Below are positions 17,984 to 37,528 of a DNA stretch of 64,000 nucleotides, one piece after another; position 1 is the first letter of the stretch, and every line of letters starts with the position of its first letter. The notes below the pieces were generated by a model. That model ran no database searches. It was given only the letters and a program-made list of their open reading frames with translations, and was not told the DNA's origin. The DNA lies in NCBI GenBank assembly GCA_001603805.1, contig LUZY01000003.1:186001-250000 (forward strand). Reading direction: 5' to 3'. A program made the position numbers and the translations under genes. The stretch is from Deferribacterales bacterium Deferri_01. GTDB lineage: Bacteria; Chrysiogenota; Deferribacteres; Deferribacterales; Geovibrionaceae.

Positions 17984-18487
17984 ATGAACAGAATCAGTTA
18001 TCTTATTTGTGCATGTGTATTTTTAGGGGCTTGCGGTGCCAAGGAGCCTAAGGTCGAAACGGGGCAGGCTATCCTTGCGGGTTTTTCCTCCGCAGGAGAA
18101 ACTGAAAATTCAAAGCGTCTGGGAGAACTTGCCACAGACCTTAATGAAGTCAAACAGAACATAGAAATTATTAACCGCAGGAATGTGGCTATTGAAGATA
18201 AGTATAAGCAGATTATAGACCTTTTCGTTGCATACAGAGAAACTCTTACCGCTTTGAATTCTAAAGTAGATAATTTTACTCTGCAAAAAAATTTGGCTTA
18301 TTCAAATAAAGGTGTATCATTATATGGGAACCGAAACTTAACCGGCGAACCTGTGACGAACATTTCACAAAATTTTCTGGTTGAGGTTCTTGAAGGCGAA
18401 GCAGGGGTTCAGGGTGTTGTGGCTGTTCGTTCGGCTGATGTTTTCGGATATGCCAACGGAACATCTTTTACCAAACTTGCTAAGTAG
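17984..18487 (+). CDS. Small predicted lipoprotein with coiled coil and SH3-like end
   Basis: 167 residues. The signal peptide ends in a lipobox (FLGAC), predicting lipidation of the Cys after cleavage. Residues about 30-85 are charged and heptad-like (ELATDLNEVKQNIEIINRR), a likely coiled coil. The last 60 residues (GVSLYGNRNLTGEPV onward) are beta-rich and recall a bacterial SH3-like domain. ATG 17984 was chosen because it places the signal peptide correctly and has GGGGTG upstream; a TTG at 17963 is less likely. It is 48 bases upstream of the sulfide dehydrogenase cytochrome gene and may belong to that unit. I do not recognise the family. Confidence 0.7.
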   Translation: MNRISYLICACVFLGACGAKEPKVETGQAILAGFSSAGETENSKRLGELATDLNEVKQNIEIINRRNVAIEDKYKQIIDLFVAYRETLTALNSKVDNFTLQKNLAYSNKGVSLYGNRNLTGEPVTNISQNFLVEVLEGEAGVQGVVAVRSADVFGYANGTSFTKLAK

Positions 18488-18535
18488 TTCCAATAGGTTG
18501 CATTTTTCTCCCGCTGAGAGGGAATGGAGGTGTTA

Positions 18536-19120
18536 ATGAAAAGGTCAGCGTTTTACCTGTTATGTGTTTTTCTGTTTGCATCCATCGGCGCATGGGCAGC
18601 AGCAGGGGGCGATACTGCGGAAAGGACTGCTAAAACGTGCGCAGGCTGTCACGGAACTTACGGCGCTTCACCGGGTGAATTTATACCTGTTATCGGCGGT
18701 CAGCACGCAGAATATCTTAAAAAAGTTCTTCTTGAGCTTAAAGGCAAAAAACGACCCCACAGCATCGAAATGACGCTGATGGCATCCGGTTATACTGATG
18801 AACAGCTTGAGGCTATCTCTGAGTGGTATGCCGATAAGAAATGGGCTGATTCAAAAGTTAAGGTCAATGAATACAATATGAGCGCCACTGTTTCTCTTAT
18901 CGAAAATTACTCATGTTTCGGCTGCCATGTGGACAACGGCAAAGGGGAAGGTGAAACACCCGCAATAACCGGACAGGCGCCCGGATACCTTAAAAACGTG
19001 CTTATGAAATACAAGGCAGGACTTATCCCTTCAGACGAAATGGCTTTTCTTAAAGATGTCAGTGAGGTTGAGATTGATGCAATGGTATCTTATCTCACAG
19101 AGCTGGGGAGGAACAGATGA
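18536..19120 (+). CDS. fccA: Diheme cytochrome c4-like subunit, FccA type
   Basis: 194 residues with a Sec signal peptide (cleavage near AWAAA) and two heme c sites, CAGCH (35-39) and CFGCH (127-131). Met residues in HSIEMTLMASG and SDEMAFLKD are plausible axial ligands. Two similar cytochrome domains in tandem is the c4/FccA layout. It should accept electrons from the flavoprotein encoded next, whose start overlaps its stop (ATGA). TGGAGG sits 5 bases before the ATG at 18536. Periplasmic. Final electron acceptor unknown. Confidence 0.88.
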   Translation: MKRSAFYLLCVFLFASIGAWAAAGGDTAERTAKTCAGCHGTYGASPGEFIPVIGGQHAEYLKKVLLELKGKKRPHSIEMTLMASGYTDEQLEAISEWYADKKWADSKVKVNEYNMSATVSLIENYSCFGCHVDNGKGEGETPAITGQAPGYLKNVLMKYKAGLIPSDEMAFLKDVSEVEIDAMVSYLTELGRNR

Positions 19121-20424
19121 GCGGAATATCCAGAAGGAACTTTGTAAAAGCTTCAGCCGTTGTAGTTGCTGCGGCAGGAGTTTCAGGCTGTACCGGCAGT
19201 CTTGGTCTTAATCTGAATAAACAGCAGGATCAGGTTATTCTGCCGAAATCAGGTAAAAGAGTTGTCGTTCTCGGCGGAGGCTGGGGCGGAACCACGGCGG
19301 CTAAGTACGTTAAGCTTGGTGATCCATCCATAGAAGTAATTCTTGTGGAAAGACTCGAGAATTTTGTTTCATGCCCCGCAAGCAACTGGGTCATAGCCGG
19401 GTTCAAGTCTTTGCAGGAAATAACATTTACTTATGATGCCCTCGCAAAGAATTACGGTATTAAAATATTAAAAACCGAGGCAACAGGGCTTGATCCTGCT
19501 GCTAAACAGCTTATTACTGCCGCAGGGCGTATAGAATATGATAAACTCATAGTTTCTCCCGGCGTTGAGTTTATGTATGACAAAATTGAAGGCTGGTCAA
19601 AGTCTGCTGAAGATATCTTTCCCCACGCATACAAAGCCGGCAGGCAGACAGCAATTCTCCGTGAGCAGCTGGTAAATCTTAAAAACGGTGAAAATGTTAT
19701 TATGACTGTTCCCGCCGCTCCTTACAGATGCCCTCCCGGACCCTATGAAAGAGCGTGCCTTATAGCTTTTTACCTCAAAAATAATAAAAAAGGCTCAAAG
19801 CTTATCGTCCTTGATGCTAATGATGACATAGCTTCCAAGGGCAAACTTTTTCATGCTGCATGGGACGACTATTATAAGGATATAATAGAGTACGTGCCTG
19901 AAACTGTTGTGAAAGGCGTTGATGTTAAGAGCAGGGTAATTAAAACCGATAAAGGCGATTTTAAAGGCGGAGCGGCAAATATTATTCCGAATATGAAAGC
20001 AGGCTCGTTTGCTTATAAAGCCGGGCTTCTGCCCGAAAGCGAGCGCTGGGTGCGTGTAAACTCGTTTACTCTTGAGTCTCAGGCGTTGAAAAATGTATTT
20101 GTCCTTGGTGATTCAACCCATGCGGGTACAGTTGGTCCTGTGCCGAAGTCCGGTTTTGTTGCCAACTCTATGGGCAAGGTTGCTGCTGCGGCTGTTGTGA
20201 ATGAGCTTAATGGTAAAGAGCCCTTGAAACCGAACCTTGTCAACACTTGTTACAGCCTTGTAAATGACAAAGAAGCCATATTCATCTCCGGAGTTTATGA
20301 TTATGATGAAAACACGAAGATGATAACCAGCAGGGGAGGCGGGCTCTCGCCTGAGCGTTCAGAGCTTTATGGCAAACACGCAGTGGACTGGACTCTCAGT
20401 ATCTGGTCGGATATGCTTTCCTGA
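19117..20424 (+). CDS. fccB: Flavocytochrome c sulfide dehydrogenase, flavoprotein subunit
   Basis: 435 residues. A twin-arginine signal (SRRNFVKAS) precedes a possible lipobox VSGC (Cys25), so the protein may be a Tat-exported lipoprotein. The FAD-binding motif VVVLGGGWGGTTAAKY follows. Cys205 in YRCPPGPYERAC and Cys378 in NTCYS match the pair forming the redox-active disulfide of FCSD. The C-terminal FCSD domain is present. The enzyme oxidises sulfide to sulfur or polysulfide and passes electrons to the diheme cytochrome. A related role such as polysulfide or thiol oxidation cannot be excluded. Confidence 0.9.
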   Translation: MSGISRRNFVKASAVVVAAAGVSGCTGSLGLNLNKQQDQVILPKSGKRVVVLGGGWGGTTAAKYVKLGDPSIEVILVERLENFVSCPASNWVIAGFKSLQEITFTYDALAKNYGIKILKTEATGLDPAAKQLITAAGRIEYDKLIVSPGVEFMYDKIEGWSKSAEDIFPHAYKAGRQTAILREQLVNLKNGENVIMTVPAAPYRCPPGPYERACLIAFYLKNNKKGSKLIVLDANDDIASKGKLFHAAWDDYYKDIIEYVPETVVKGVDVKSRVIKTDKGDFKGGAANIIPNMKAGSFAYKAGLLPESERWVRVNSFTLESQALKNVFVLGDSTHAGTVGPVPKSGFVANSMGKVAAAAVVNELNGKEPLKPNLVNTCYSLVNDKEAIFISGVYDYDENTKMITSRGGGLSPERSELYGKHAVDWTLSIWSDMLS

Positions 20425-20448
20425 AGCTATTTTCCAATGTTAAACTTT

Positions 20449-20482
20449 AAAAGCCGCTGTATTTTTGCAGCGGCTTTTTTTT
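20449..20482 (+). terminator. Terminator after fccB
   Basis: AAAGCCGCTG and CAGCGGCTTT form a stem (20449-20459 with 20468-20477), followed by eight T residues. Confidence 0.9.
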
Positions 20483-20722
20483 GAACTTTGTTTTCATGAG
20501 AACCTTTATTCAAAAAACATAATATTTTGATTATTAGACTTTACTATCTATTGAATTAAATAGCAGTGATCATATTTTTTCCTGTGTTTTATTTCTGGAT
20601 CATTGCTATGCTAAATGCTATTGTGACAAATAAGTTACGTAACCAAAAGGTGACATTTCGTCAAATAGATATTTTCAATTATATGGAAACAGATTATTTG
20701 ACTATGATTTATAAGACGATGC

Positions 20723-20742
20723 TAAATGTATATTGTATACAA
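20723..20742 (+). promoter_or_regulatory. Operator-like element, copy 1 (TTGTATACAA core)
   Basis: TAAATGTATATTGTATACAA, with the palindromic core TTGTATACAA at 20733-20742. The same 20 bases recur at 24281-24300. The core resembles sites of FCD-type GntR regulators; the regulator is not identified. Confidence 0.6.
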
Positions 20743-20781
20743 AAAACTCTTTACATTTTTTTATAGGAAGGTATAGTAGCT

Positions 20782-20801
20782 ATATTCCAATCTTGGAATA
20801 T
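20782..20801 (+). promoter_or_regulatory. 20-base perfect dyad before the TorD-type gene
   Basis: ATATTCCAA (20782-20790) and TTGGAATAT (20793-20801) are exact complements separated by TC. The length and near-zero spacer fit a dimeric regulator site better than an RNA hairpin. It lies 60 bases before the start codon. Confidence 0.55.
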
Positions 20802-20860
20802 GGTGAATAACAGATAGATAAAGTAGATTAATAAGCGCTCGGTCATGGAGTTTTTTTATT

Positions 20861-21550
20861 ATGAGTTTAATGACGGGTCTCAAAAGTGCCCTTGCCGAAA
20901 ACAATTACGAAAGCGCAAAAAACGCGCTTGCTGATGCAACACCTGATAGAGACGGATTAGTCAGTCTTTCAGCCGCTTTTATGTTTCTTTCACTTGTGTA
21001 CAGGTATCCTGATAAGCCTGTTTACGACACCCTTGAAAAATACATACCCGAATTTCAGTCATTTGTTGATGAGTACACAGCAGAACCTCTTTTGCTTACT
21101 GAAAGACGTGAAATGGAATATGACTATGTGCGCCTCTTTATTAATGCGCCCGGCGGAATGAAAGCTAATCCTTACGCTTCATGCTGGATGAGTGATGAAA
21201 AGCTTCTCTGGGGTGAACAGATGATACGCCTGAAAGAACTTATGGCTTCTGAAGGATTTGAAATGAGTTCTTCTGTAACAGAACTTGAGGATCATATAGG
21301 TGTTGTTCTTGAGTTCTGCTCGGTACTTACGGAAAAACTTGCTTCGGATTCCCAGTCCTGCGGGGTTGGAAGTGTTTTCGCTCTGCTTGAGATAATGCGT
21401 GATTTCTTTCCTGTATTTGCCGGCAGCTTTGCTTCCAAAGTTATCGAAAATGCAGAGCTGGGATTCTATAAAACCTCAGGAATACTTGTTCAGGGGTTTC
21501 TTGCTGATGCTGAACATATTTTCGAGGAGCTGATCTTCGAAGGTCAATAA
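20861..21550 (+). CDS. TorD/DmsD-family molybdoenzyme chaperone
   Basis: 229 residues, all-helical. The family segment EMEYDYVRLFINAPGG, then NPYASCW, is clear, with a later LEDHIGVVLEF. Such cytosolic proteins bind the twin-arginine leader of a specific molybdoenzyme and hold it until the bis-MGD cofactor is inserted. The natural client here is the Tat-dependent PsrA-type protein at 24366, which shares an operator-like element with this gene. GGAG lies 10 bases before the ATG. The small cytochrome gene follows after 43 bases. Confidence 0.85.
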   Translation: MSLMTGLKSALAENNYESAKNALADATPDRDGLVSLSAAFMFLSLVYRYPDKPVYDTLEKYIPEFQSFVDEYTAEPLLLTERREMEYDYVRLFINAPGGMKANPYASCWMSDEKLLWGEQMIRLKELMASEGFEMSSSVTELEDHIGVVLEFCSVLTEKLASDSQSCGVGSVFALLEIMRDFFPVFAGSFASKVIENAELGFYKTSGILVQGFLADAEHIFEELIFEGQ

Positions 21551-21593
21551 AAAATAAGGGGGCACATGCCCTGTTAATTTATGGAGGTTAACA

Positions 21594-21935
21594 ATGAAAA
21601 GAAAAGCTGTTATGGCTCTCACCGTGGTTCTTATCCTCGCTTTTGCGGTTGCTACTGCATTTGCAGCAGGAAATGAAAGAAAAGGTAAAAGAACATGGAA
21701 AAAAAGCTGCCGCACTGCATGTCATGACGGAAGCCAGGCTTCCAACCTTTCACCCGTTTCAAAAACTCAGGCTCAGTGGAAAGCTCTTTTCGATGCTGAA
21801 CACGCCAAAATCGATGCAGCTCACAAAGCTAAAAACGTTGCAATCGACGGTCTTCAGGCAAGCGACTGGGAAGATATGTTTGAATATCTGAAAGGTCACG
21901 CTCTTGACAGCGACCAGCCCGAAACCTGCGGTTAA
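21594..21935 (+). CDS. Small periplasmic cytochrome-like protein with CX3CH motif
   Basis: 113 residues with a clean signal peptide ending near TAFAAG. The only candidate heme site reads KKSCRTACHDG: three residues, not two, lie between the Cys residues before His. The rest resembles small monoheme cytochromes (LSPVSKTQAQWKALFD, then a helical tail ending DQPETCG with a third Cys). GGAGG is 6 bases upstream of the ATG. It lies between the chaperone and porin genes, followed by a strong terminator. Either heme is attached through a CX3CH site or this is a heme-less relative. Confidence 0.75.
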   Translation: MKRKAVMALTVVLILAFAVATAFAAGNERKGKRTWKKSCRTACHDGSQASNLSPVSKTQAQWKALFDAEHAKIDAAHKAKNVAIDGLQASDWEDMFEYLKGHALDSDQPETCG

Positions 21936-21946
21936 TAAATTTTTGT

Positions 21947-21986
21947 AAGGCAGATGCTCCCTTCGGCATCTGCCTTAAGTTTTTTA
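21947..21986 (+). terminator. Terminator after the small cytochrome gene
   Basis: AAGGCAGATGC (21947-21957) pairs perfectly with GCATCTGCCTT (21966-21976), followed by a T-run at 21980-21985. Confidence 0.9.
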
Positions 21987-21999
21987 AATTCGGTATAAA

Positions 22000-22021
22000 C
22001 GGCTGTTCCCTTCAACAGCCG
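22000..22021 (+). other. Second hairpin, upstream of the porin gene
   Basis: CGGCTGTT (22000-22007) pairs with AACAGCCG (22014-22021) around CCCTTC. There is no T-tract. It ends 38 bases before the porin ATG and may be a 5' mRNA stabiliser. Confidence 0.5.
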
Positions 22022-22059
22022 CTTATATAAAAAGTTTCATTCTTTATGGGGGCAGTTTT

Positions 22060-24066
22060 ATGAATAAACTTCTCGTTGCGCTTTTAACACTTCTCGTGTC
22101 TGCTTCCCTTGCCTTTGCGGCTGATCCTTCCCTTGAGGATCTCAAGAGCCAGATAACCGCACTGCAAGGAGAGATAGACTCCATCAGCAAACGCGTTGAC
22201 GTCAATGAACGTCACACTGCGCTTGACAAAACAACTCTCGGCGTTGAGCTGAGAACAAGACTCGACTCTATCAGTTATGACGATGTAAGGGCACTTCCTG
22301 CATACGCTAATGACATGATGAGCCTCTGGCTTCAGGGAACACTGGTTTCCGGAGCAGGCGGTTCAGCATGGGACGCTGACGGAGATATGTGGAACGATGC
22401 TTTTATGCAGAACTATGGTCAGGATTTTGGCGTCCTCTATAATGACCTTATGGGAACATCCGCGGTTGCGCAGGAATTTCAGATGAATTTCGGCGCTCTT
22501 GTGGGCATGGACGGCATGGGAGGGTTTGTTAACACTGAATGGCTTGACGGTATGATCGACTATGCCGGAATGACCGGAGTGGTTGCTGACGGCAACATGA
22601 ACGGCGTCACGGACTATCAGGACGTTGTGATTACCGTGGCAACTTCAAACGGGCTTGACCTCAACGACCCGACTCAGGCTGCACAGGCTCAGATGATGGC
22701 AAACATGATGGCGTTTGCTTATCTTATGAATGACGGCACTCTCTCTTCTGCTGAAGCCGCTGTGGTTAAATCTATGTTTAAAGGCGTTAAGCCCAGAAAG
22801 TACAGCACAGAAAACAGCTCAATGTTCACAAACAAACTTCGCCTTCGCCTTAACAGCAAGGTTAACAGCAACCTCAGCTTCGCAGGCCGACTTGTTATGT
22901 ATAAATCATGGGGCGATTCCAACAACATCAGGTTCTTCGACGGAACATTCAAGAGCATGTATCTTGACGGCAACTCCGCCGCTGTTCCCACAGATGACTC
23001 TATTCATGTTGAAAGAGCATATTTTGTTTACAAAAACAACATAGGCGATATGGGATACCACTTCTCATTCGGACGCCGTCCCTCAACCTATGGTCCCGGT
23101 TATGAAAACCATGAGAACTCTGTTCTTGGCGGTTCTCCCGTGGCTTCCATTATTCAGTGGAACTTTGACGGTGCTTCTCTCCAGTTTGACTTTGACGCAT
23201 GGGTTCCCGGCTCCTTCATTAAATTCTGCTACGGTAAGGGTTTTGAAGGTCAGTGGGGTACTTCCAACGCTCTTTCAGCAAACAACGGGCTTGTTTCCAA
23301 CCCCAATGTTGACGATGTTGAATTCGGCGGAATCATCCTTAAGTTCTATGACGATGAACAGTATAAAGTTTGGTACAACTACGCCAGAGGATTCGGTGTA
23401 ACTGACGGCTTTACCGGTATGGTGGCTATGCCCTTCTATATAAGCGGCAAAGACTACAATATGGACGGTGAGTATGATGAATACTCATTTAATCCCAACT
23501 ATGGCGGTTATGCTTCAAGGTTTGAACCCACAGCGGAAATCGGCGACATTGAAATGCACGCTTTTCTTGTTCAGGGTGAGAACTACGGCTTTAACTGGTT
23601 CGCTTCATACAACCTCAGCAAAACTCATCCGGACGGAAGATCCAACAACCCTATGTTTCAGTTCATGGATCAGGACAAGCTTCTCGGCTCTGACAGCAGC
23701 AAAAACGGTAATATGATATGGGTGGGCGTAACAACTCCCGAACTTCCTTTTACCGGCGGTAAGCTTGGCTTTGAATACAATCAGGGAAGCAAAAACTGGA
23801 TAAACTTCACCGCAGCAGAAGATGATATCGTAGGCAGCAAGCTTGCGGTAAGAGGTAAGGTTTATGAAGTCTACTACCATCAGCCCATCGTAGGCAACAG
23901 GCTGTTCGCCACTCTCGGTTATCAGTACTTTGACTATGAATATACAGGCAGCGGCAACCCCATGGGTGCGCCCACTAAAATTGATGACGTAAATGGTCTT
24001 CATGCAATGATGCCTGTGGTTGATAAGGTAGAAAAATTCTACGGTTCTTTCACCTACAGTTTCTAA
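22060..24066 (+). CDS. Large outer-membrane porin-like protein, DUF3373 type
   Basis: 668 residues. A signal peptide (cleavage near LAFAA) precedes a short coiled coil (SLEDLKSQITALQGEIDSIS), then a long beta-strand-rich region ending KFYGSFTYSF. The final Phe with alternating aromatic residues is the usual outer-membrane barrel signature. The overall pattern (NKLRLRLNSKVNSNLSFAG, then FGRRPSTYGPGYENH) recalls DUF3373 proteins of Deferribacteres and Campylobacterota. Three Asp/Asn-rich loops (near residues 105-113, 177-188 and 466-475) look like EF-hand calcium loops. GGGGG precedes the ATG. Probably a pore or channel serving the flanking periplasmic redox proteins; no substrate can be named. 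Confidence 0.78.
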   Translation: MNKLLVALLTLLVSASLAFAADPSLEDLKSQITALQGEIDSISKRVDVNERHTALDKTTLGVELRTRLDSISYDDVRALPAYANDMMSLWLQGTLVSGAGGSAWDADGDMWNDAFMQNYGQDFGVLYNDLMGTSAVAQEFQMNFGALVGMDGMGGFVNTEWLDGMIDYAGMTGVVADGNMNGVTDYQDVVITVATSNGLDLNDPTQAAQAQMMANMMAFAYLMNDGTLSSAEAAVVKSMFKGVKPRKYSTENSSMFTNKLRLRLNSKVNSNLSFAGRLVMYKSWGDSNNIRFFDGTFKSMYLDGNSAAVPTDDSIHVERAYFVYKNNIGDMGYHFSFGRRPSTYGPGYENHENSVLGGSPVASIIQWNFDGASLQFDFDAWVPGSFIKFCYGKGFEGQWGTSNALSANNGLVSNPNVDDVEFGGIILKFYDDEQYKVWYNYARGFGVTDGFTGMVAMPFYISGKDYNMDGEYDEYSFNPNYGGYASRFEPTAEIGDIEMHAFLVQGENYGFNWFASYNLSKTHPDGRSNNPMFQFMDQDKLLGSDSSKNGNMIWVGVTTPELPFTGGKLGFEYNQGSKNWINFTAAEDDIVGSKLAVRGKVYEVYYHQPIVGNRLFATLGYQYFDYEYTGSGNPMGAPTKIDDVNGLHAMMPVVDKVEKFYGSFTYSF

Positions 24067-24075
24067 AAACTTAAT

Positions 24076-24106
24076 GCGGGGGTTCGCACAGAACCCCTGC
24101 CTTTTT
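24076..24106 (+). terminator. Terminator after the porin gene
   Basis: GCGGGGGTTC (24076-24085) pairs with GAACCCCTGC (24091-24100), one wobble, followed by CTTTTT. Confidence 0.85.
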
Positions 24107-24280
24107 ACAGGCTTAATATGACCTTTTGCGATTGTAAATACTACACATTTCCCGCACGCACAGATAAATCAGGTCATGAACTCAGAAACTTTTTTCCCAG
24201 TAAACAGATAGTAATTATAACACGATGTTATAAGGATAAATATTTATACTTGCATATATTATGAAAGATGGATATATGTA

Positions 24281-24303
24281 TAAATGTATATTGTATACAA
24301 TAT
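24281..24303 (+). promoter_or_regulatory. Operator-like element, copy 2, before psrA
   Basis: Bases 24281-24300 are identical to 20723-20742. Here the palindrome extends to 16 bases, ATATTGTATACAATAT (24288-24303). It ends 62 bases before the psrA start, where it could cover a promoter. The rest of the 24107-24365 gap is AT-rich without a gene. Confidence 0.65.
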
Positions 24304-24365
24304 GCAGTCTTTTAGTAAACGAACATTGTCGGAAGAATTAGTGATATAACAGGAGGTCCATTCAT

Positions 24366-26681
24366 ATGAAGCTCAGTCGCAGGAAGTTTCTTGCAGCTTC
24401 CGGAGGGGCATTTGCAGCAGCGGTAGCGGCAGCAAATCTCACATCCCTTAAGGCAGTTGCAGAAAGCGGACACGGTGATGCACAGACAGGCGAAAAAGGC
24501 GAAAAACACATCGCCTCATCCTGTGAAATGTGTGTTAATAAATGCGGTTTTTATGCCCATGTAGTTAACGGACGCATCAAAAAGCTTAACCCGAACCCCC
24601 GCTTTTTTAAGAGCCGCGCTATGCTTTGCGCAAGAGGCAACGCAGGTGCGGAAGAACCCTATAACCCCGAAAGGCTTAAAACTCCCCTCGTAAGAGACGG
24701 CGAGAGAGGCAGCAATAAATGGAGAAAAATTTCCTATGAGGAAGCTTTCCAGATAGTTGCTCAGAAGCTCGCAGAAGCCAAAACAAAATATGAAAACCGC
24801 TCTTCAGTAGCCTTTTTCTCATCAGAAGGTCTTCAGGAAGGCAGCTTCCAGATGCTCGCTCAGACTTACGGATCTTTGAATACAGTGCGCCACCCTTCGC
24901 TCTGTCTTTCATCCACAATACAGGGCTGGTCATCCGTTTACGGAGTATATCCCGATGCGGATCTGGCTAACGCTATGTTTGTGGTTATGCCCGGCGCTAA
25001 CAGGGCAGAAGCTCTGGTAACTCCCGATTCAATGGATTTTCTGCGTTACAGACCCAAGGGTCAGCAGCTTGTGGTTCTTGACCCCAGATTCACAAACACG
25101 GCAGCAAAAGCCGACAAGTGGTATCCTGTGAAGCCTGCAACCGACATGGCGTTTATGCTTGCCATGATCAACGTGATAATAAACGAAGAACTCTATAACA
25201 AAGATTTTGTTGCGAACATGACAGAAGGTTTTGATGAACTTAAGGCTCATGTTCAGCAGTACACTCCTGAATGGGCTGAAAAAGAGTGTGAAATCCCTGC
25301 TGATGAAATCAAATGGTGTGCCCGTGAGTTCGCAAAATACGCTCCCCGTTCCGTTATTTATCCGGGCAGAAGGACATCATGGTACGTGGATGATGTTGCC
25401 TTCCGCAGGGCGTGTGCGATTATACCCGCTCTTTGCGGATGCTGGGATGTTCCCGGCGGTATAGTTCCCAAGTCCGGCGTTCCGCTGAAAAACCCTGACA
25501 TTATGTATCCTTTCTACGACATGGTTGAGGAAAGGCTTGATGTTGAGTCATTCGGTGAGTTCGACAACAATCTTCCTGATGATGCAAGAAAAGAGGCGGG
25601 GCTTCCCACTGATTCTGTTGCATACCTCGGTGAAAAAGACGGAAGCTGGATAAGATTCAGAGAGGCTGTTTTAAGAGGCGAACCTTACCCTGTTAAAATG
25701 ATGATGGTTTACAAGCAGAACTTCGTGGAAGCAGCTCCCAACAGGGCAAAGACTCTGAAAATGATGGAGATGATGGATTTCATCTGCATGATAGATATAC
25801 AGATGTCTGACACTGCTTTCTACGCTGATCTCGTAATACCTGAATCCACATACCTTGAAAGATGGGATGTTGTTCACAGCCTTGCGGGAATTTGGCCTAT
25901 AGCCACTTTCCGTCAGGCATGTATTGAACCTGTTTATCAGACTAAGTCAATGTTTGAAATAACAGGAGGCATAGTTGATGAAATGCTTAAGATTCCCGAA
26001 CTCTGGGATGACACAGACGAAGAGGAACTTGAATACTTCAAGGAAGACTTTGTTGAGGCTATTCTTCATGCGCCTATACAGGATTATATAAAATATCAGG
26101 TAAGCGGATTTGAAAACGGTTACGAAAAGCTCCTTAAAGACGGCGTGATCTATAAAACAGATCAGGGTGTTTACGGTCAGAGTGCTAAACCTGGTTACCG
26201 TTTCAAGACCCGAAGCGGCAAAATCGAGCTTACAAACGTTAAATACCCTGATAAGGGGCTGGATGCTCTCCCTGTTTACAGAAGAGCAAGACAGCCAAAA
26301 GACGGTCAGTTCCGTTTTATCCTCGGCAGACACGGCTGGAACACTCACACCGGAACACAGAACAACGAATTTCTCTGGGAGATACAGAAAGAAAACACTC
26401 TCTGGATCAACTCTAAAGAAGCTCTTAAACTCGGCATCAAAAACGGTGACAGAGTTGTTGTGAAAAGCTCCGTGGGCGAACAGACTGTAAAAGCGGAAGT
26501 TACAGAAAAAATACGCCCTGACTGCGTTTTCTATGCACATGGTTTCGGACGTGTTTCCAAAGGAATGAGCCTTGTATATCAGAAGGGTGCTTCTCAGGCG
26601 GCAATACTTGAAGACTACATAGAGCCCATTTCCGGCAATGCTGCTATGCACGAAACCTTTGTAACAGTAAGCAAGGCTTAA
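24366..26681 (+). CDS. psrA: Polysulfide/thiosulfate reductase-type molybdopterin subunit
   Basis: 771 residues, similar to PsrA/PhsA (about 760). A twin-arginine leader (SRRKFLAAS) directs export of the folded protein. Cys53, Cys56, Cys60 and Cys88 bind a [4Fe-4S] cluster. Cys180 in HPSLCLSST is the likely molybdenum ligand. The C-terminal MGD-binding domain contains GRHGWNTHTGTQNNEFLW. Family members reduce polysulfide, thiosulfate or related oxyanions in the periplasm using quinol electrons delivered by the next two subunits. AGGAGG lies 9 bases before the ATG. Arsenate, selenate or tetrathionate as substrate cannot be excluded by sequence alone. Sulfur genes on both sides favour polysulfide. 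Confidence 0.85.
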   Translation: MKLSRRKFLAASGGAFAAAVAAANLTSLKAVAESGHGDAQTGEKGEKHIASSCEMCVNKCGFYAHVVNGRIKKLNPNPRFFKSRAMLCARGNAGAEEPYNPERLKTPLVRDGERGSNKWRKISYEEAFQIVAQKLAEAKTKYENRSSVAFFSSEGLQEGSFQMLAQTYGSLNTVRHPSLCLSSTIQGWSSVYGVYPDADLANAMFVVMPGANRAEALVTPDSMDFLRYRPKGQQLVVLDPRFTNTAAKADKWYPVKPATDMAFMLAMINVIINEELYNKDFVANMTEGFDELKAHVQQYTPEWAEKECEIPADEIKWCAREFAKYAPRSVIYPGRRTSWYVDDVAFRRACAIIPALCGCWDVPGGIVPKSGVPLKNPDIMYPFYDMVEERLDVESFGEFDNNLPDDARKEAGLPTDSVAYLGEKDGSWIRFREAVLRGEPYPVKMMMVYKQNFVEAAPNRAKTLKMMEMMDFICMIDIQMSDTAFYADLVIPESTYLERWDVVHSLAGIWPIATFRQACIEPVYQTKSMFEITGGIVDEMLKIPELWDDTDEEELEYFKEDFVEAILHAPIQDYIKYQVSGFENGYEKLLKDGVIYKTDQGVYGQSAKPGYRFKTRSGKIELTNVKYPDKGLDALPVYRRARQPKDGQFRFILGRHGWNTHTGTQNNEFLWEIQKENTLWINSKEALKLGIKNGDRVVVKSSVGEQTVKAEVTEKIRPDCVFYAHGFGRVSKGMSLVYQKGASQAAILEDYIEPISGNAAMHETFVTVSKA

Positions 26682-26697
26682 TGGAGGTAATGGTATA

Positions 26698-27252
26698 ATG
26701 GCTACTAAAAAATTCGGCATCGTCCTTGATGCTAAAAAATGCCTCAACTGCAAGGCATGTACCGTTGCCTGCAAGTTTGAGAACACGATACACCCCGGCG
26801 AAGACGACTACAGAATATGGGTTACTGAACTTGAACTTAAGGGTACGTATCCAAATATTTCGCAGGAATATCAGCCTTCTCAGTGTCAGCACTGTGAAAA
26901 TACACCATGTGCCAGCGTGTGCCCCACAAAGGCGACATATAAATCGCCCGAAGGCGTGGTTCTGATCGATTACGACAAGTGCATACTCTGTAAGGCATGT
27001 ATGACAGCATGCCCCTATGACGCCAGATACGAAAATGTTCATCTGCACGCCATAGATAAATGCACATTCTGCTACCAGCGCCAGCCGGAAGGCAGAGAAC
27101 CCGCATGCGTTGAAACATGCCCCACAAGGGTCAGGGTTTTCGGTGATCTCAACGATCCCGAAAGTGAAGCAAGTAAACTTCTTGCTCGTAACCATACTTA
27201 TCAGCTTAAGCCGGAAAGAAACACCAGACCCCGGCTTCACTACATAAAATAA
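26698..27252 (+). CDS. psrB: Four-cluster ferredoxin subunit, PsrB type
   Basis: 184 residues with the DmsB/PsrB arrangement. Four Cys groups are visible: CLNCKACTVAC, CQHCENTPCASVC, CILCKACMTAC and CTFCYQRQPEGREPAC plus VETCP. They bind four [4Fe-4S] clusters carrying electrons from the membrane subunit to the molybdenum site. It has no own leader and would be co-exported with the Tat-dependent catalytic subunit. It starts 16 bases after psrA, with GGAGG upstream. Length is normal. Confidence 0.9.
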   Translation: MATKKFGIVLDAKKCLNCKACTVACKFENTIHPGEDDYRIWVTELELKGTYPNISQEYQPSQCQHCENTPCASVCPTKATYKSPEGVVLIDYDKCILCKACMTACPYDARYENVHLHAIDKCTFCYQRQPEGREPACVETCPTRVRVFGDLNDPESEASKLLARNHTYQLKPERNTRPRLHYIK

Positions 27253-27265
27253 GGGGGATATTCTG

Positions 27266-28477
27266 ATGGCAGCACATACGGAAAACCACGGAAAATCTTT
27301 TTTGAAGTCCCTTATCGTTAATAATAAGGACATTCCCGCAATGCCTTTTATCATCCTCGGCCTTATTTTATGTGCCGTGGGCGGCTTTGCGGTTATCAGC
27401 GTGTTCGTGAAAGGGCACCATGAAGCATATGGCGTTACAAGACAGGTTCCTTGGGGGCTTCTGATCTCCTCATACGCATATTTCGTGATTATATCCACGG
27501 GTATAGCGTTCATAGGCGGTCTGGGACATGCCTTCGGCTATGAGAAATATGCAAAAATCAGCAAGAGGATTGTGGTTCTCGCTACAATAGTTCTCCTTGC
27601 CGGCTTCACGCAGATCCTTATGGAGATAGGCAACCCTCTCAGAATGGTTTACATGATGATAAGCCCCAATTTTAAGGCGCCTATTTTCTGGATGGGTATG
27701 TTCTACGGCATAGAGCTTGTTATACTTGCCTTTGAACTCTACCTGATATTCAAACCCAATCAGACAGAGGCAGACCATAAACTTGCCGCTGTTGCCGGTT
27801 TCCTTGCTCTGCTTGTAGGTGTTCTTGCCACAAGCAACCTCGGTTATGTTTTTGGTTCGCTGAATGCAAGAGAATGGTATCACGGAATATACTTCTCCAC
27901 ATTCCTTGTTGTTTCAGGCGTAACAGCCGGAGCGGCACTGCTTATACTGGTTCATACAATAGTTTATAAAGGCTCGCTTCCTGCAGAGCTGAAACCTTCA
28001 ATGGTCTCCCTCGGCAAGCTTATGGGCGGCGGTATAGGCGTTATGATGTTCCTTTATCTCTGGAAAATGCTTTCATCAATTTTTACAGAGCCGGGCGATG
28101 CTTATATGTCTGTTATGTCACTGATAAACGGACCTTTAAGCTTTAACTTCTGGATAGGTGAAATGCTTCTGGCGGTTATTCTGCCCCTTGCGCTCATAGT
28201 GACTGCTAAGGGAAGCATAAAAAAACTCAGTATGGCAGGGTTCATTTTCCTCATAGGTCTGTTTTTCACAAGGTTTGACTTTGTGGTCGCAGGTCAGCTT
28301 CCTCCTATGAGAAAAGGGCTCGCCGGATCCGGTGTTATTACAGATGTAGCAGGATTTGCATTTTACAGTCCTTCTATGCTTGAGTGGCTTGTTTATATGT
28401 TTGGTTTCGGAGTTTTCTTCCTGCTGTATTTTTCAGCAGAAAAGTTTCTGAACCTTGAAACAGAGAGCCACCATTAA
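27266..28477 (+). CDS. psrC: NrfD/PsrC-type membrane quinol oxidase subunit
   Basis: 403 residues with nine to ten hydrophobic segments spread along the chain. The opening region (PAMPFIILGLILCAVGG, then TRQVPWGLLISSYAYFV) is typical of NrfD-family proteins, which oxidise menaquinol and anchor the PsrB subunit. At about 400 residues it is longer than the 8-helix PsrC proteins and nearer the larger NrfD members. GGGGGA precedes the ATG; 13 bases separate it from psrB. Menaquinone made by the futalosine route (mqnB in this window) would be its donor (inference). Confidence 0.88.
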   Translation: MAAHTENHGKSFLKSLIVNNKDIPAMPFIILGLILCAVGGFAVISVFVKGHHEAYGVTRQVPWGLLISSYAYFVIISTGIAFIGGLGHAFGYEKYAKISKRIVVLATIVLLAGFTQILMEIGNPLRMVYMMISPNFKAPIFWMGMFYGIELVILAFELYLIFKPNQTEADHKLAAVAGFLALLVGVLATSNLGYVFGSLNAREWYHGIYFSTFLVVSGVTAGAALLILVHTIVYKGSLPAELKPSMVSLGKLMGGGIGVMMFLYLWKMLSSIFTEPGDAYMSVMSLINGPLSFNFWIGEMLLAVILPLALIVTAKGSIKKLSMAGFIFLIGLFFTRFDFVVAGQLPPMRKGLAGSGVITDVAGFAFYSPSMLEWLVYMFGFGVFFLLYFSAEKFLNLETESHH

Positions 28478-28904
28478 TGAAACTTTCTTCCTGACATAAA
28501 TATCTTTTCGGCAGTCTTTTTATAGAGGCTGCCGGAGGGTATTTTTACAGTGAAGACGCGATATTGTTTTATTTATATATACTGGCTTAACGATAAGTAC
28601 CTGTTAGTATTATAGAAAATAGTAATACATAAAATCATAGTTAATTGCTTGGTAATTTGCTTTTTTAATATTTAATAATTAGGAAGATAATAAGTATTTT
28701 ATATTTATTATTGAATTTTAAAATTGTAAATTTCGTAAAAAAATGTATAATAGAATAGTTGTTTGTTGATAATTTATTAAGTTAATTTTTGCGAAAATAC
28801 ATAGCAAAGACGAGGATAACGAATGCATCTTTCCCTCTGGAGAGTCCATAGCGGAAAGACAGCAGAGTTATAAATTTTAATTAACCCCGATGGAGGTATA
28901 TTTA
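28478..28904 (+). promoter_or_regulatory. Long AT-rich leader region before the rhodanese gene
   Basis: 427 bases without a gene. A 9-bp hairpin (28509-28517 with 28526-28534) follows psrC, with T residues 6 bases beyond the stem; it is a weak terminator. The middle is extremely AT-rich. A nested fold lies at 28828-28859: TCTTTCC pairs with GGAAAGA around CTCTGGAGAG. It ends about 45 bases before the start codon and could act in the mRNA leader. It does not match a riboswitch class I know. Confidence 0.5.
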
Positions 28905-30098
28905 ATGCGTATGGTAAGCAGAATTCTTATGGCTGCCGTGTTCAGCATGGCTCTTTTTGTTGCAGGCTGCGGAACGGCGAAGAAGGAGGTTGCCGCCCCC
29001 GCCGAGGCTGCGAAGGCTAAATCTGTTGCAGAGCAGATAGTCGAATCCGGTTTTGAAATGGTAAAAATTGACGAAGTTAAAAAGGTTGTCGGTAACGGCA
29101 TGTTTAATGCGTCAAATGGCGTGATGGTCGACGCCAGACCCGAACGTGTTTTCGATCAGGGTCATATACCCGGTTCTGTAAACATCCCCGACAACAAATT
29201 CGAGGAGTTTTATCCTGTTCTTACTGAAAAGAAAGTAACAAAAGACACTTATATAATCACTTACTGCGGCGGCGTTGACTGCATTAAGAGTCTTCATAAC
29301 GCAAAGTTCCTCAAAGATAAAGGCTACACTAATGTAAAAATCTACCTTGACGGTATGCCCGACTGGACAAAACAGGGAAATGCTGTTGAGATAGGTTTCA
29401 GCACTGCTCAGAAGCTTCATGCCGAAGGCAAAACCCTTTTTGTTGACGCACGTCCCGAAAGAGTATTTGCAAAAAGCACAATCCCCGGTTCTGTAAACGT
29501 TCCCGACAATAAGTTTGAGCAGTTCAAACAGTTTCTTCCTGCTGATAAAAGCGAAACTTTCGTTGTTTACTGCGGCGGCTATGAGTGCGTGAAATCTCAT
29601 GTTGTTGCTGAACTTGCAATGAAACTCGGCTATAAAAAGCCCCTTATATATGCAGGCGGACTTCCCGAATGGCAGAAAATGGGCGGAACAATGGAAGCTG
29701 CTGCACCTAAGGCTGCTGCTGCCTCCGCTGCACCCGCAAGCGGAATCAAACAGGGCGGAGAACCCGGTTCTGTTGATAAGGACTACTTCAAAACGCTTAT
29801 AGCCTCAAGACCTGCAAATATTGTTATCGTCGATGTCAGAACTCCCGCTGAGTTCCAGAACGGTCATATTGAAGGCGCTATAAACATAGACGTTGATAAA
29901 ATCTACAAAGAAGGATGCGAGGCTGTTACTGCTCTTCTTCCTAAAGAAGGGGATATTATATTCCATTGTGCTTCCGGCGGCAGAGCAGGAGAAATGTATT
30001 TCGGACTCGTTGAAGACTGCAACTTTCAGCCGAAAGAAAGACTTCACTTCCTTGATGCACATGTGAAATTCAGCGATGCTCAGTGCATAGTTGAATAA
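28905..30098 (+). CDS. Triple-rhodanese periplasmic lipoprotein
   Basis: 397 residues. A signal peptide ends in the lipobox VAGC (Cys22). Three rhodanese domains follow: about 45-160 with Cys121 in YCGGVDC, 165-262 with Cys223 in YCGGYEC, and, after an Ala/Pro linker, 285-395 with Cys355 in HCASGGR. Each holds a candidate persulfide-forming Cys; the first two have an unusual second Cys in the active loop. It could carry sulfane sulfur to the neighbouring polysulfide-type reductase, much as the unrelated-in-layout Sud protein does in Wolinella (inference). GGAGG lies 8 bases upstream of the chosen ATG. It is followed by a bidirectional terminator. Confidence 0.88.
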   Translation: MRMVSRILMAAVFSMALFVAGCGTAKKEVAAPAEAAKAKSVAEQIVESGFEMVKIDEVKKVVGNGMFNASNGVMVDARPERVFDQGHIPGSVNIPDNKFEEFYPVLTEKKVTKDTYIITYCGGVDCIKSLHNAKFLKDKGYTNVKIYLDGMPDWTKQGNAVEIGFSTAQKLHAEGKTLFVDARPERVFAKSTIPGSVNVPDNKFEQFKQFLPADKSETFVVYCGGYECVKSHVVAELAMKLGYKKPLIYAGGLPEWQKMGGTMEAAAPKAAAASAAPASGIKQGGEPGSVDKDYFKTLIASRPANIVIVDVRTPAEFQNGHIEGAINIDVDKIYKEGCEAVTALLPKEGDIIFHCASGGRAGEMYFGLVEDCNFQPKERLHFLDAHVKFSDAQCIVE

Positions 30099-30142
30099 CA
30101 GAAGCAATTACACTTTTTCATAATCTTCTTTAATCAAAAAGG

Positions 30143-30176
30143 CAGTCCGGGGTCTTGCTCCGGACTGTTTTTTTTA
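30143..30176. terminator. Bidirectional terminator, rhodanese and mocR genes
   Basis: CAGTCCGG (30143-30150) pairs with CCGGACTG (30160-30167), with T8 on the plus side and an A-run at 30136-30140 giving T on the minus side. The plus T-run overlaps the mocR stop codon. Confidence 0.85.
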
Positions 30177-37350: not shown

Positions 37351-37351
37351 G

Positions 37352-37528
37352 ATCCCCTGCGGCGTTCGTAAGATGGAAGAAAACTGCAGCCAACAATTTT
37401 AACCTGGGTGTTGATACTGGACGCAGTGTGCATGCCTGTTCGCAGGAAGCCTGAAGCGTTCGTGATACTCCCGCCCTTATTGTAAGGGCTACTAGGTTTC
37501 TTCCACAAACGGCGCATGCGGGGGTTGG
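37352..37528 (+). ncRNA. ssrS: 6S RNA candidate
   Basis: The 182-base gap folds into a long rod. CCCCTGCG near 37355 pairs with CGCATGCGGGG near 37512. TGGAAGAAA (near 37374) pairs perfectly with TTTCTTCCA (near 37497). An apical CCTG-TTCG-CAGG hairpin closes the middle, with an internal open region between. A rod of this length directly after zapA, with 5-formyl-THF cyclo-ligase two genes on, is the usual 6S RNA setting. 6S RNA mimics an open promoter and binds RNA polymerase. Ends are approximate. Confidence 0.8.

Follow-up and report, generated by a model that had tools for sequence, protein, structure and literature searches.

We identified, at positions 17984-30098 of a 64,000-nucleotide window (the whole stretch of DNA analysed), a gene cluster that we read, with somewhat better than even confidence, as a polysulfide or zero-valent-sulfur reductase module with periplasmic handling of sulfane sulfur, plus a separable sulfide oxidase. 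The core comprises a TorD-type chaperone, a small exported protein with two conserved cysteines, a DUF3373 outer-membrane porin, the reductase PsrABC and a lipoprotein with three rhodanese domains; the add-on is the flavocytochrome c sulfide dehydrogenase (FCSD) FccAB. Operons of the same kind as the core have been reported before, and the version with FccAB and porin is a family-level variant. The gene content, conservation and cysteine patterns of the cluster are established here, and a role in sulfur reduction is supported by published work on its relatives.

Organization of the cluster

All features lie on the plus strand. The genes that the original prediction named in the block are all intact open reading frames with Pfam support. 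Preceding them is an open reading frame for a small lipoprotein (17984-18487; LGAC lipobox), for which no Pfam or NCBIfam match was found; because its tblastn homologues do not extend past its own genus and a single sister genus, it probably lies outside the conserved module. Between fccAB and the gene for the TorD/NarJ-type molybdoenzyme chaperone (20861-21550; Nitrate_red_del, 75.3 bits) lie 436 bp that include a promoter-like site. Terminator-like hairpins follow the small protein gene (hairpin at 21946-21977, after the gene end at 21935), the porin gene (24076-24100, after 24066), psrC (28504-28539, after 28477) and the rhodanese gene at the 3' end of the cluster (30136-30174, after 30098), which suggests that the block is transcribed as several units and not as one operon. 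An Rfam search of the block found no riboswitch; apart from tRNAs, the only RNA family matched in the window is 6S RNA (RF00013, 86 bits) at 37351-37528, outside the block.

A molybdoenzyme of the polysulfide reductase type

The catalytic subunit PsrA (24366-26681; Pfam Molybdopterin, Molydop_binding and Fe4S4) has the features by which the PsrA/PhsA/SrrA family is recognized, namely, a Tat signal (SRRKFL), a single N-terminal [4Fe-4S] motif and a cysteine as the Mo ligand, and it is encoded alongside a PsrB-type four-cluster ferredoxin subunit (26698-27252; Fer4_11, 91.6 bits) and a PsrC/NrfD-type quinol-interacting membrane subunit (27266-28477; NrfD, 92.4 bits) of 403 amino acids with about 10 hydrophobic segments by hydropathy. 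PsrA could be aligned from the Fe-S motif to the C-terminus (726 residues, 1.8e-112) with the catalytic subunit of the same type from Thermus thermophilus PsrABC (2VPW); C53, C56, C60, C88 and C180 are conserved and align with 2VPW, Cys180 with its Mo-ligand region. The Thermus PsrC is presumably shorter than that of the window.

The curated PhsA model scored 507 bits against the window PsrA, below its cut-off of 694. In a tree of 118 sequences, obtained by a quick search and containing some long branches, the window PsrA grouped with its own family and Deferribacterota, and E. coli PhsA, to which the window PsrA is 30% identical, grouped with a different paralogue of the source genome. We therefore rejected the label of thiosulfate reductase for the window PsrA. 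The source genome (2.85 Mb, 14 contigs), which to judge by its sister taxa, Denitrovibrio and Seleniivibrio, probably belongs to Geovibrio, yielded 21 Molybdopterin-family matches and encodes two more PsrA/PhsA-family paralogues, G000:C5:94009-96261 (L171), the one that groups with E. coli PhsA, and G000:C11:65083-67266 (L170).

Conservation within and beyond the phylum

The block is not a chance assembly, since its gene order is shared by two more congeneric species, whose PsrA is 93-94% identical to that of the window, by a sister genus with 77% PsrA identity and, at 70-72%, by Denitrovibrio and one Seleniivibrio-type genome. The fccAB-torD-porin-psrABC-rhodanese arrangement is retained in 8 of the 12 family genomes, and DUF3373 and the rhodanese gene lie beside psr in 11; Denitrovibrio acetiphilus (G018) carries the whole cluster and the Seleniivibrio genomes the core. 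Conserved co-occurrence of all the genes, the check originally suggested, holds for fccAB, porin and rhodanese with psr in eight family genomes, but outside the family only the core recurs. Among 51 genomes of the phylum, PsrA relatives at E ≤ 1e-60 were detected in 24, the triple rhodanese in 27 and DUF3373 in 26 (single-copy in all of these but one), nearly the same genomes and families of Deferribacterota, a co-occurrence that stems in part from shared ancestry and so does not test the association independently. Other families of the order possess psrABC, often paired, with none of the cluster partners nearby save a small-protein homologue in two genomes, and in Deferribacter the porin and rhodanese genes are unlinked from psr.

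Beyond the phylum, one genome scan limited to the best-scoring relatives (79 loci, hence a biased sample) recovered the core, that is, the small protein, the porin and/or the rhodanese beside PsrAB(C), in Desulfobacterota, Acidobacteriota, Chrysiogenes-type genomes and Campylobacterota. In this best-scoring sample, the small protein and porin are encoded upstream of PsrA at all nine Acidobacteriota-type loci (Acidobacteriota and one desulfuromonad); AMeS2-type loci include the rhodanese in 7/7 and the small protein in 6/7 cases, and Desulfohalobiaceae-type loci the chaperone in 4/4 and the porin in 3/4. In Campylobacterota and others, a rhodanese is encoded near 21 of 61 PsrA genes, with several loci ending at contig ends. 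Homologues of the TorD-type chaperone also adjoin PsrA in other phyla. The import-carry-reduce scheme originally proposed gains from this recurrence of porin, small protein and rhodanese beside the PsrA clade in several phyla and from the closely matching distribution of single-copy porin, triple rhodanese and PsrA across Deferribacterota genomes, but its substrate and direction are what we infer, and to call the module complete is to claim more than a sequence can show.

The operon of Desulfurivibrio dismutans AMeS2 (RS06465-06490, locus L091) and its D. alkaliphilus counterpart share with the window a chaperone-like gene, a small two-cysteine protein, PsrABC and a three-rhodanese sulfurtransferase, but have neither FccAB nor a DUF3373 porin beside them. 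The window PsrA is 45.3% identical to the AMeS2 Psr. This operon, in which the sulfurtransferase is secreted, is strongly upregulated during sulfur disproportionation, and proteomics placed its Psr in the reductive branch (PMC12142623).

A separable sulfide dehydrogenase

The 3' end of fccA (18524-19120), an open reading frame for a dihaem cytochrome c (Pfam Cytochrom_C; motifs CAGCH and CFGCH), overlaps the start of fccB (19117-20424; ATG at 19117), the product of which has a Tat signal. In FCSDs, one cysteine binds FAD covalently and one pair of cysteines is redox-active. FccB matches 1FCD (phmmer, 1.2e-89), with the FAD-linking cysteine and both redox-active positions kept, and aligns also with 5N1T and 3VRD, in which the same positions are conserved. 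These cysteines, the FCSD-specific domains (FCSD_central, FCSD-flav_bind) and the adjacent dihaem cytochrome identify FccAB as an FCSD, which resembles the 1FCD and 5N1T enzymes in the key FccB cysteines and the dihaem FccA, and differs from them in its psr neighbourhood.

The original notion of an oxidise-store-reduce unit is less well supported: fccAB adjoins psr in eight family genomes, which represent four genera, but in the other four it is located elsewhere, and in other families it occurs without psr beside it. Three Seleniivibrio-type genomes have FccAB at a separate locus with the small protein as divergent neighbour, and in another genome (G027) torD, porin, rhodanese, FccAB and the small protein are encoded together, about 450 kb from psr. 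FccB was found in 30 of the 51 phylum genomes; in other families, FccAB is encoded among unrelated genes, in some cases in genomes with no PsrA match, and among the loci sampled from other phyla none has FccAB beside psr. Judged by this distribution, FccAB is a family-level extra that is separable from the core and also occurs alone.

That FccAB and the psr core have unrelated functions and are chance neighbours in the family, with the core alone as the functional unit, appears unlikely. Such a view could draw on the promoter-like site that parts fccAB from torD and on the solitary FccAB genes of other families, but would have to account for a neighbourhood kept across four genera and for relocated FccAB that retains the small protein, joined in G027 by torD, porin and rhodanese.

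In Campylobacterota, the stronger matches to the FccB model (≤86 bits) were rejected as FCSDs, because sequence inspection identified them as Tat-exported SQR-like proteins. At six loci of this phylum (L113, L114, L125, L132, L145 and L147), such flavoproteins are encoded 2-5 kb upstream of psrABC. This constitutes a parallel pairing of a putative sulfide oxidase with a sulfur reductase.

The porin, the small protein and the triple rhodanese

The original label of small cytochrome suits the small protein (21594-21935) only in so far as it is cytochrome-c-like: its motif is CRTACH (CX3CH) and not CXXCH, its score against the Pfam cytochrome model is 19.4 bits, below the cut-off of 27, and two cysteines are conserved in place of the haem motif. 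That motif is missing from most homologues and takes its canonical form only in a subset of those from Desulfobacterota and Acidobacteriota. Across 33 aligned sequences, G31, C43, W62, A103, D105 and S106 are invariant and C112 nearly so. A fold search with the AlphaFold model (mean pLDDT 81) gave no significant match, only weak matches to cytochrome c (E 1.7 or worse). The CX3CH motif might still bind haem.

The DUF3373 outer-membrane beta-barrel (22060-24066; Pfam, 477.7 bits, 4.2e-143) has a cysteine, Cys390, that all 22 aligned sequences share, as they do a Lys or Arg at position 388; the cysteine is also retained in 6 of 7 unlinked DUF3373 copies. Residues 387, 389 and 391 are hydrophobic, and strand alternation suggests that Cys390 faces the lumen. 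The model of the barrel (mean pLDDT 74) is closest to general porins, with modest TM-scores, and given this resemblance to ordinary porins we rejected an MtrB-like electron conduit.

The rhodanese lipoprotein (28890-30098) carries CGGxxC motifs in domains 1 (CGGVDC, 126-131) and 2 (CGGYEC, 228-233) and HCASGGR (359-365) in domain 3. A search of viral contigs with this protein yielded no matches. In four homologues, an in-frame TGA occupies the second cysteine codon of the first CGGxxC motif (L091, 14542-14544; L090, 5131-5133; L094, 13172-13174; L100, 14483-14485), so that AMeS2 (L091) has a probable selenocysteine where the window has Cys131. A hairpin with a GGUC loop is possible downstream of each of the four TGA codons and not in L092, the one cysteine homologue with the same motif; it is clearly more stable than shuffled sequences in only one of the four and is not the predicted minimum-energy fold in L091. 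Models for rhodanese-related selenoproteins exist, and our literature search found no paper joining selenoprotein, rhodanese and polysulfide reductase. The TGA in these four loci likely encodes selenocysteine and, if so, marks Cys131 of the window as redox-active. One Seleniivibrio-type genome also has a TGA in its triple-rhodanese gene (G027:C4:692934-694142, L157), at a conserved Trp outside the active site; we took it as a nonsense change or sequencing error and did not count it as selenocysteine in Deferribacterota.

The conserved cysteines of these three proteins prompt a bolder proposal, which we consider speculative and unlikely as it stands, that they work as a persulfide relay dedicated to moving zero-valent sulfur (or selenium) from the outer membrane to PsrABC, with FccAB refilling the pool in the family. 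The pore-facing cysteine beside the invariant Lys/Arg would catch the chain, the small protein, derived from a cytochrome and repurposed as a thiol carrier, would hand it on, and the redox-active CGGxxC/U rhodanese would deliver it to the Mo site.

Substrate and direction

In the reading we favour, that of a polysulfide or zero-valent-sulfur reductase with a separable sulfide oxidase, electrons from quinol would travel via PsrC and PsrB to PsrA, and this periplasmic Mo enzyme would cleave sulfane sulfur to sulfide. The porin would admit polysulfide anions, possibly engaging its pore-facing cysteine, and the two-cysteine small protein and the lipoprotein may accept sulfane sulfur in persulfide form before passing it to PsrA. 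FccAB would turn sulfide back into polysulfide or S0, with electrons going to cytochrome c when nitrate or another oxidant is available. This reading is supported by the alignment of PsrA with 2VPW, the AMeS2 operon, the Deferribacter orthologues, the grouping of PhsA elsewhere, the cross-phylum linkage and the FCSD cysteines of FccB. Published accounts hold that the substrate is not readable from sequence in the PsrA family (PMC13047784, PMC13186404).

S0-respiring Deferribacter species have two psr-like clusters, and D. thermophilus, in which there is no S0 respiration, has none (PMC13186404). The paired psrABC of D. desulfuricans and D. autotrophicus are linked to S0 respiration and encode PsrA orthologues 59-66% identical to that of the window (66% and 59% in D. 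desulfuricans, G011), but their psr loci, unlike the window, are without chaperone, rhodanese, porin and FccAB. The reading as a linked module is weakened because these S0 reducers keep porin and rhodanese away from psr and because hairpins split the block. Reduction of S0 is likewise made less certain by D. acetiphilus and Seleniivibrio, which carry the cluster or its core, since D. acetiphilus and S. woodruffii, or their genera, are recorded as not reducing S0 despite psrABC (PMC6896113).

Polysulfide or S0 remains the most likely substrate, with selenite as the main rival. The cluster would then encode a respiratory reductase of selenite (or another chalcogen oxyanion) of the Srr kind (SrrA, SrrB, 43-kDa SrrC, chaperone SrrD and 45-kDa rhodanese SrrF), and its rhodanese and porin would act on selenite or elemental selenium, an explanation we regard as rather unlikely. 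The family of the window includes Seleniivibrio, and a related genome (G003) is presumably that of Desulfurispirillum indicum. The latter species, to which G003 probably belongs, is a known selenite reducer (PMC5877670), and the PsrA/PhsA/SrrA lineage to which the window PsrA belongs includes SrrA (PMC7331816). The selenite-respiration operon srr comprises parts of 80, 17, 43, 24, 38 and 45 kDa, with rhodanese domains (PMC12481199), and the window matches it closely in sizes and in parts (chaperone, rhodanese proteins, 43-kDa anchor), a comparison of Bacillus selenitireducens srrABCDEF made by published description; that parts list, unlike the window, is without FccAB and an outer-membrane porin. 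In Geobacter, the ext cluster likewise has a rhodanese-like protein adjoining an outer-membrane porin (extHI), and ExtI, the porin, affects selenite reduction, but their partners are multihaem cytochromes and not PsrABC, and the ExtH model matches the window rhodanese protein weakly (26.3 bits against a cut-off of 200). Against the selenite reading, too, the close relatives of PsrA track S0 respiration in Deferribacter and growth on sulfur in AMeS2.

The cluster might instead be mainly oxidative, with FccAB and possibly a reversed PsrABC oxidizing sulfide to polysulfide or S0, nitrate as the final acceptor, and porin and rhodanese exporting or storing sulfur. When D. alkaliphilus oxidizes sulfide with nitrate, its homologous operon is expressed at a high level, and a role in producing elemental sulfur and not in reducing it was proposed (PMC5516251). 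The genuine FCSD features of FccAB, the full cluster in D. acetiphilus, a nitrate reducer with no known S0 reduction, and the SQR-like flavoproteins upstream of psr in several Campylobacterota point the same way. We nevertheless judge this direction distinctly unlikely, given that four of the 12 family genomes lack FccAB at the psr locus, that it was not seen there in the sample from other phyla, that proteomics puts the Psr of AMeS2 in the reductive branch (PMC12142623), and that D. autotrophicus has psr copies and cannot oxidize sulfide (PMC6896113). Disproportionation, also raised originally, found no support: in a search confined to dsrA and soxB, none of the 12 family genomes had a dsrA match and all SoxB matches fell below the cut-off, so neither oxidative branch (Dsr or Sox) was detected.

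To conclude, the reductase reading bears on how poorly soluble sulfur is transported across the outer membrane and fed to periplasmic reductases. The cluster offers candidates for these steps, the DUF3373 porin, the two-cysteine small protein and the triple rhodanese, with conserved residues that can be mutated. Because these helpers reappear in distant phyla and keep unusual cysteines there, insoluble-sulfur handling becomes easier to test. That a sulfide oxidase is paired here with a sulfur reductase, with a putative parallel in Campylobacterota, is relevant to cryptic sulfur cycling in nitrate-reducing anaerobes.
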